This document shows, in pieces, positions 7,966-11,331 of a DNA stretch of 11,331 nt. Source of the DNA: a bacterium. Its GTDB lineage: Bacteria > SZUA-182 > DTGQ01. The notes under the pieces are model-generated. The model did not search any database, was not told where the DNA came from, and was given only the letters and a program-made list of their open reading frames with translations. How positions within the stretch are numbered: position 1 is the first letter of the stretch; each line of letters opens with the position of its first letter. Where the stretch lies: the NCBI GenBank assembly GCA_023512255.1, contig JAILZY010000106.1, positions 1-11,331 on the forward strand, given 5' to 3'. A program made the position numbers and the translations under genes.

Positions 7966-8235
7966 AAGCCGATGCCGTATTCCTTCGTCAAGAAAATGAA
8001 AAATCTAAAATTTTAGCTCTTTTAATAGCTCAAGCCGTAGAGATAGCTTAACTATAGCAGAAAGGTAGTGTGAAGTATAGCCAAATTTCTGACGATACTC
8101 TAAATATAGGCTATTTTCCCAGTGAAATTGTGAAAATCATACTTGACAAATTTCTTCAAATATTTTTATAGTATGAAAGCATAAGGGCTTTAAAGCAGCG
8201 CTTAGCATATTTAATACCAACCATAAGGAAAGTTG
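7966..8235. other. Divergent intergenic region between GT9 gene and trpB
   Basis: This 270-nt AT-rich spacer separates the two gene groups. The plus side has a clear promoter (8143-8172). On the minus side no convincing promoter for the GT9 gene is visible; the best guess is TTGAGC followed after 17 nt by TTTTAG, which is weak. No tryptophan-codon leader peptide or attenuator hairpin is seen before trpB. Confidence 0.5.
8143..8172 (+). promoter_or_regulatory. Strong sigma-70-like promoter of trpBA
   Basis: TTGACA (8143-8148) is followed after 18 nt by TATAGT (8167-8172), with an AT-rich spacer and upstream region. The transcript would start near 8179 and have a leader of about 57 nt without Trp codons, so control, if any, would be at initiation or by an unseen factor. 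Confidence 0.7.
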
Positions 8236-9471
8236 ATGACCCGGAAAAGTGGATATTACGGTCGCTTTGGCGGTGCGTTTGTGCCAGAAATTCTGATAGC
8301 CACGCTGAGGCAATTAGAGAAAGAATTCTATGAGGCCAAGAGCGATCCTAATTTTTGGTCTGAATACACATCTTTGATGTCAACTTACTCCTGTCGCCCT
8401 ACGCCTCTGACCCTGGCTGAAAATTTGACTCACTATTTTGGGGGAGCCAAAATCTACATTAAACGGGAAGACCTAAATCACACTGGGGCTCATAAAGCCA
8501 ATAATGTCATGGGGCAGGGGCTTTTAGTCAGGCGAATGGGCAAAAAGCGGGTCATTGCTGAGACTGGTGCAGGCCAGCATGGAGTGGCCGTAGCCACTAT
8601 GGCCGCCCGATTCGGTCTTGAGTGCACGATATATATGGGAGAGGTTGATGTTGAGCGTCAGCGGCCCAATGTTTTCTGGATGGAGCAGTTAGGGGCGACA
8701 GTAGTTCCGGTGAAGGATGGCTCCCGTACCCTGAAGGATGCGATCAATGAAGCCATGCGGGATTGGAGTGCCAGTATGGAGACCACTCACTATGTCCTGG
8801 GCACAGCCTGCGGTCCTCATCCCTTCCCTGAGATGGTTACCTATTTTCAATCTATTATCGGCCAGGAGCTAAAAGAGCAGATGCTTCAGCGGGAAGGGCG
8901 GCTGCCAGATCGAATCTATGCCTGTGTTGGTGGAGGGTCTAATGCCCTTGGCATATTTTCTGCATTTTTTGATGATCAGCAGGTAGAGCTGCACGGTGTC
9001 GAAGCCGGGGGAAAAGGACTTGAGAGCGGACACCATGCTGCCAGGCTCTCTTCTGCTGATGCTCGAGTGGGAGTTGCTCAAGGATATAAGACCTTCTTTT
9101 TGCAAGATGAGGAAGGACAAATGAAAGAGACTTATTCCGTAGCTGCCGGGCTGGATTATATAGGAGTGTCCCCGATATTGGCCAATTTGCGAGAGACTGG
9201 CCGAGTCCAGTTCCACGCAGCTACGGACCATGAGGTTATTGAAGCCGTAAGGCTAACCATGAAAAAAGAGGGGATTATTCCCGCTCTTGAATCCGCCCAT
9301 GCTTTTGCCTACGCTTTCCGTGAGGCCCCGACCTTGAGCAAGGATACCATTGTGGTTATCAATCAATCTGGCCGCGGAGACAAAGATATTTTCACCATTG
9401 CCGATGCCCTGGAAGATAAGCAGTGGAAAGAGTTTATCATCAAAAAGGCCAGGGGGTATGAATCTCACTGA
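8236..9471 (+). CDS. trpB: Tryptophan synthase beta chain
   Basis: PLP enzyme of the alpha2-beta2 tryptophan synthase that condenses indole with serine. From ATG 8236 the protein has 411 residues, close to the usual 397. The PLP lysine is K87 in HTGAHKANN, E109 lies in AETGAGQHG, the phosphate loop GGGSN is at 232-236, and NQSGRGDKD near the C-terminus holds the serine that binds the pyridine nitrogen; K87, E109 and 232-236 match Salmonella numbering. It is the TrpB1 type that partners TrpA. The usual SAGLDYPGVGPEH is changed to AAGLDYIGVSPIL followed by ANLRETGR, a variation close to the subgroup with GIGPMHANL. A TTG just before the ATG could extend it by one residue, but AAGGAAAG (8225-8232) fits the ATG. 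The 3' end overlaps trpA by 14 nt. Confidence 0.97.
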   Translation: MTRKSGYYGRFGGAFVPEILIATLRQLEKEFYEAKSDPNFWSEYTSLMSTYSCRPTPLTLAENLTHYFGGAKIYIKREDLNHTGAHKANNVMGQGLLVRRMGKKRVIAETGAGQHGVAVATMAARFGLECTIYMGEVDVERQRPNVFWMEQLGATVVPVKDGSRTLKDAINEAMRDWSASMETTHYVLGTACGPHPFPEMVTYFQSIIGQELKEQMLQREGRLPDRIYACVGGGSNALGIFSAFFDDQQVELHGVEAGGKGLESGHHAARLSSADARVGVAQGYKTFFLQDEEGQMKETYSVAAGLDYIGVSPILANLRETGRVQFHAATDHEVIEAVRLTMKKEGIIPALESAHAFAYAFREAPTLSKDTIVVINQSGRGDKDIFTIADALEDKQWKEFIIKKARGYESH

Positions 9472-10396: not shown

Positions 10397-10870
10397 ATGA
10401 TCAGAAACGAAAGAAACAATTTTGTGACTGCGATAGAAAAATTCAGCATGAGAGAAGAACTAAGGCAGAACCTTGAATCCTCCAGTCAACGAATCCTGTC
10501 TGAGCTGCCCTCCGAATTGCTATGGGAGTGGGATGACCGGTTTGATCTCCCCTTACTGGTCTTTCCCAAAGATATGGAGGAAGAAATTGTGGCTGTGATT
10601 AAGCGCCACTTTCCCAATCAGTGGGATCTTAATTCTATTAAAACGGCACCGCCGGTTATTCGAAAATTAGTGGATAAGTCCTTCGGCATCAGGATCGGGC
10701 AGACAGTGTTTGCTACGGACATGAACCAGGAGGCTTTTATGTTTGCCTTGTATTGGCCTTGGGAAGATAAGGTTACTGTTTCTTTGCGAATCGGTCTGAC
10801 CGGGAAAGGAATTATGGGAGCCGATCAGGAAAAGATCGGAGAGTATCTTCGGGAGTGGTTTCAGCTTTAG
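10397..10870 (+). CDS. Hypothetical protein, 157 aa, family not recognised
   Basis: I do not recognise this protein. It is soluble, with no signal peptide or membrane segment. The N-terminal third is helical and charged (IEKFSMREELRQNLESSSQR, about 13-32), followed by a Trp/acid-rich block LLWEWDDRFDLPLLVFPKD (41-59). After EEIVAVIKRHFPNQWD (62-77), the C-terminal half alternates hydrophobic strands (FGIRIGQTVFATD; FALYWPWEDKVTVSLRIGL). The ATG has GGAGA just upstream with short spacing (TTTGGAGAATG). It lies 162 nt after trpA on the same strand, beyond two tandem duplications, and no promoter or terminator is clear between them, so it may be read through from trpBA. Regular codon use and the long open frame support a real gene; the function cannot be inferred. 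Confidence 0.7.
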   Translation: MIRNERNNFVTAIEKFSMREELRQNLESSSQRILSELPSELLWEWDDRFDLPLLVFPKDMEEEIVAVIKRHFPNQWDLNSIKTAPPVIRKLVDKSFGIRIGQTVFATDMNQEAFMFALYWPWEDKVTVSLRIGLTGKGIMGADQEKIGEYLREWFQL

Positions 10871-10950
10871 TGGTTCTATCGCCTAAGTAAGGGCACTGGT
10901 TCAGTTTAATTGGCTCCCCGATCAGGGTAGTTGAATTTGGAATATTTCAT

Positions 10951-11066
10951 CGCTCATGGCCATTTTCAGTTAAAAGTCAGCTAAATCACCATTCCATTAT
11001 TTTCGCGAAAAGCGGGAATCGAAAATTCCTTGGATTCCGGCTCCTCACGAATGGTAGCCATGAGCG
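10951..11066. repeat. Inner inverted repeat nested in the MITE-like element
   Basis: CGCTCATGGC (10951-10960) is the exact reverse complement of GCCATGAGCG (11057-11066). CATT and AATGG just inside add partial pairing. TTTTCGCGAAAA (11000-11011), a perfect palindrome, lies between the arms, along with ATTCC (10991-10995)/GGAAT (11015-11019) and GGAATC (11015-11020)/GATTCC (11033-11038) pairings. Confidence 0.65.
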
Positions 11067-11075
11067 TATTTTATT

Positions 11076-11104
11076 TTTGGAATATTTCATTTGGAATATT
11101 TCAT
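11076..11104. repeat. Tandem 14-mer, third copy at 10936-10950
   Basis: TTGGAATATTTCAT occurs at 11077-11090 and 11091-11104 in tandem, and once more at 10937-10950 directly abutting the left arm of the inner inverted repeat. Confidence 0.9.
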
Positions 11105-11144
11105 TATGGTAACAGACCTCTTTTGATTATTCCCAAAGATATCT

Positions 11145-11170
11145 CATGGATTCCTGCTTTCGCAGGAGTT
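11145..11170 (+). repeat. Dispersed-type palindromic repeat
   Basis: GGATTCCTGCTTTCGCAGGA forms the hairpin TCCTGC-TTTC-GCAGGA (11152-11167). The motif 'TGGATTCC-GC-TTTC-GC-GGAATGACA' is a common dispersed bacterial repeat by recollection. A degenerate copy lies at about 11031-11053 (TGGATTCCGGCT) and a reverse-oriented fragment at 11003-11020. Confidence 0.5.
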
Positions 11171-11214
11171 ACAAAAAAGACAAAAGTAGAGGTAATTAAA
11201 CTAAACCAGTGCCC

Positions 11215-11331
11215 CCAAAGCCTGTGTGCTTAAGGCGATCATTTCGAGTGGGCATTGCAGATGTTCCCCATGTTGAAAAAATAATGTTGAAAATATAAAG
11301 GGGAGGAGAGAAAATAAAGAGAGAAGAAAGT
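11215..11331. other. Right-end spacer with a 14-bp-period duplication and purine-rich tail
   Basis: ATGTTGAAAA occurs at 11270-11279 and 11284-11293. AAGGGGAGGAG at 11299-11309 looks like a ribosome site, but no start codon follows before the window ends, so whether a gene begins just beyond is unknown. Confidence 0.4.

Follow-up and report, generated by a model that had tools for sequence, protein, structure and literature searches.

What kind of element occupies positions 10891 to 11214 of the window (the whole stretch of 11,331 nucleotides that was analysed), and how did it arise? The initial annotation had proposed a possible new MITE-like, non-autonomous element, bounded by 21-bp inverted repeats and enclosing non-coding, palindrome-rich DNA. 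The arms (10891–10911 and 11194–11214) are identical at 20 of 21 positions and can be extended to 26 nt at 88% identity (10891–10916 and 11189–11214). The window has no other pair of this kind (21 nt, one mismatch or fewer, within 400 bp), and 50 mononucleotide shuffles yielded no comparable pair; the repeats are thus real. The limits need a slight adjustment: the terminal G/C pair (10891 and 11214) lies outside the repeat, because the base preceding GGCACTGG varies freely among the other copies, and the outer MITE proper is a 322-bp composite (Table 1).

Table 1. Coordinates of the two nested elements and of their parts in the window
Feature	Positions	Strand	Basis or remark
Outer MITE	10892..11213	.	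Own-genome family of terminal inverted repeats with 22 end matches; element lengths and the alignment to copies L024/L026
Left terminal inverted repeat, GGCACTGGTTCAGTTTAATT	10892..10911	+	
Right terminal inverted repeat, GGCACTGGTTTAGTTTAATT	11194..11213	-	One change relative to the left repeat
Short palindrome in the outer element, TCCTGCTTTCGCAGGA	11152..11167	.	Similar stretch in L024/L026; matches in G002/G004
Inner MITE, CGCTCATGGC...GCCATGAGCG, 116 bp, palindromic	10951..11066	+	About 18 own-genome copies with a sharp boundary
Inner target duplication, left copy, TATTTCAT	10943..10950	+	7/8 match to the right copy
Inner target duplication, right copy, TATTTTAT	11067..11074	+	7/8 match to the left copy

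The interior had been described correctly in that 10891–11214 contains no ORF of at least 80 aa, and in that the strand folds over the 324-bp interval far more strongly than shuffled sequences (z = -7.65); it is not, however, one element, since 10951–11066 belongs to a separate family. When the own genome was searched with the 324 bp, the matches fell into two groups, many being confined to positions 61–177 and others to the two ends. The interval is a MITE within a MITE, and this nesting had been missed. Members of the inner family have the ends CGCTCATGGCCATTTT, a length of about 116–124 bp and 8-bp target duplications, which match at 6 or more of the 8 positions in 12 of the 15 delimited own-genome copies (mean with shuffled flanks, 1.2); as DNA, the inner MITE of the window folds with z = -4.09. 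The inner family is unrelated to the outer MITE and was presumably moved by a different transposase. No partner for it was found in plasmids, viral contigs, eight relatives or the unpaired ends of the own genome.

For the outer ends, GGCACTGGTTCAGTTTRATT, there are 22 matches in the own genome (three mismatches or fewer), against none for a reversed-pattern control. Eight complete pairs of 126–322 bp, the window copy included, are present there, four of them with 8- or 9-bp duplications containing no more than two mismatches. Examples of the duplications around outer pairs are cacctcct (8/8), atatgccc/gtatgccc (7/8) and tctgctgtc/tctgttgtc (8/9), and target duplications were found at L034, L028, L032, L097 and other copies. 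Among 29 outer pairs from many genomes, a few of which represent the same site in related strains, ten showed a TSD-like match, compared with a shuffled mean of 0.5. The initial annotation had looked for support to further copies that share these ends and carry short flanking duplications; such copies exist in the source genome, but the outer copy in the window has no target duplication of its own (1/8 match), and is therefore probably old, or its flank has been rearranged.

A full-length transposon bearing these ends, also named beforehand as a source of support, was located in another genome by a protein search. It is an intact 1163-bp insertion sequence (L190) on plasmid pTs417 of Candidatus Thiodictyon syntrophicum, with the ends GGCACTGGTTCAGTTTAATT and GGCACTGGTTCAGTTTGGTT, a perfect 8-bp target duplication (ACCGCAGC) and one transposase frame of 336 residues (WP_100917404.1), which RefSeq names IS1 family transposase. 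At a second locus, L116, the left outer end precedes a transposase of 334 aa, which matches the NCBIfam IS1 transposase and is 55% identical to that of pTs417. Either the front or the back part of such a transposase adjoins the same outer ends in two family-level relatives (G002 and G003). With NF033558, the transposases of L116 and pTs417 gave E-values of 5.8e-15 and 1.4e-11, respectively, with scores of 55.8 and 44.7 bits, below the cut-off of 100; Pfam DDE_Tnp_IS1 matched neither the partner transposase nor anything in five genomes carrying the ends. IS1 target duplications are 8–9 bp long. Those found here measure 8 bp in L190 and 8–9 bp in the MITE copies, and the outer tip, GGCACTG, fits the form GGnnnTG, a feature of IS1 ends (PMC6807381). 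On these sequence grounds, the outer ends are assigned to an IS1-like insertion sequence.

Three other candidates were rejected. IS6/IS26 (IS240) had been suggested by the look of the ends, and a DDE_Tnp_IS240 transposase occurs in none of the five genomes carrying them. An IS1595-type transposase pseudogene of the own genome (L069; G000:C83:20925-21410) has no outer ends in its surroundings; it contains an internal stop and is accompanied by CGCTCTCA on one side and the inverse, TGAGAGCG, on the other. A verrucomicrobial 1140-bp pair (L112) has the same ends and no transposase frame. The window's own genome gave no match when searched for a transposase of the type matching the outer ends.

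The lack of an autonomous copy in the own genome, together with the lack of a target duplication around the window copy, would also suit a solo remnant, namely, one decayed IS1-like copy whose gene was lost by internal deletion and which never belonged to a MITE family mobile as such. We regard this as very unlikely, and for the family it is refuted by three own-genome copies of 126–127 bp, which have a common interior, different flanks and a separate target duplication each. Moreover, when the inner MITE and one 8-bp duplication are subtracted from the outer element, exactly 198 bp remain, which is the size of copy L024 (L026 is close, at 195 bp), and alignment showed that the interiors of these two copies and of the window copy are partly alike, mostly in the right third. 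Because interiors and sizes are shared at different sites, the short forms must themselves have been copied. The left end of the window copy is most like yet another copy, L023, and the window copy is thus a mosaic or a member of a distant subfamily. Outer-family copies contain the palindrome TCCTGCTTTCGCAGGA flanked by ATGGATT, and stretches matching it are repeated on their own in relatives (G002 and G004), perhaps as a third small repeat family.

The strong fold noted above and the position of the interval just downstream of an ORF might instead point to a structured RNA or a regulatory or terminator element, with a hairpin under selection, rather than to a transposon. This reading seems to us extremely improbable: an Rfam search of the 324-bp interval gave no match, no terminator-like site was found there, the terminal inverted repeats suffice to explain the fold, and the existence of target duplications, and of an element that shares these ends and carries a gene, speaks against it. 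Nor was the outer element found to follow the orthologous ORF in a same-genus genome (G001), where the upstream ORF aligns and the intergenic DNA does not, so that no empty site can be read. A single-copy sequence present at the same place in all relatives, the finding that was to have overturned the proposal, is accordingly not what we see, the ends being multi-copy. The upstream ORF (10397–10870; 157 aa) has no Pfam match, is 83% identical at the DNA level in the same-genus genome, and comes after a tryptophan-synthase-like gene pair (PLP enzyme at 8233–9471). In the flanks of the outer element, ATCGCCTAAG (left, 10878–10887) and CTTAAGGCGAT (right, 11231–11241) make up an inverted near-repeat; the insertion may have split a hairpin here, or the similarity may be due to chance. 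A 14-bp tandem repeat (ATGTTGAAAAAATA/ATGTTGAAAATATA) follows the element closely, at 11270–11297, not far from the end of the contig.

We therefore consider it very probable that the interval is a MITE that arose from an IS1-like insertion sequence and was later split by a second MITE. An IS1-like transposase would recognize the 20-bp outer ends in trans, and gene-less copies of 126–198 bp would have spread in this way, leaving 8–9-bp target duplications; a member of the second family (about 116–124 bp, with 8-bp duplications and another transposase) would then have been inserted in the middle of one copy, giving the 322-bp composite. Mobilization in trans by an IS1-like transposase is the most likely route for the outer copies. 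Because no transposase for the outer ends is detectable in the window's genome, the outer family probably no longer moves there. In short, the description as a MITE-like non-autonomous element holds: it is short and gene-less, with terminal inverted repeats, multi-copy ends, target duplications in its family and the ends of a full insertion sequence.

The outer ends are present in two of the three same-family relatives searched and were not found in the other species of the genus. They were also recognized in genomes assigned to Desulfobacteraceae, Parabeggiatoa, Hormoscilla and Betaproteobacteria, where the pairs are likewise mostly 76–236 bp apart. A tentative extension, which we think somewhat less probable than its opposite, is that the GGCACTGGTTCAGTTT ends constitute one MITE superfamily across unrelated phyla (Desulfobacterota, Beggiatoa relatives, Hormoscilla cyanobacteria and Betaproteobacteria), through cross-mobilization with a distinct long IS1-like group, which might deserve a family of its own.

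No report of the end sequences of either element was found in the literature available to the search, and both MITE families are apparently undescribed. The composite is an ordinary kind of parasitic DNA, and the general view is unchanged by it. Two small repeat families are now named, one of them tied to its insertion sequence, which should improve the annotation of the genomes of these uncultured bacteria, and the locus provides a clear example of transposon nesting and of MITEs persisting where a matching transposase is not found.

Among known systems, the closest is the long, single-ORF type of IS1-family insertion sequence on pTs417, with which the window element shares identical or near-identical ends of 19–20 bp and GGnnnTG tips and its family the 8-bp duplication, whereas the window element is gene-less. 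The classical IS1 transposase is two-frame; that of pTs417 differs in having 336 aa in one frame and in scoring under the NCBIfam IS1 cut-off. Compared with the 187-nt ISL3-linked MITE of Microcystis (PMC11448079), the ends and the transposase family are different and the genome carrying the MITE here lacks its partner, but both are gene-less, multi-copy stem-loop elements with the ends and duplication length of a full insertion sequence.
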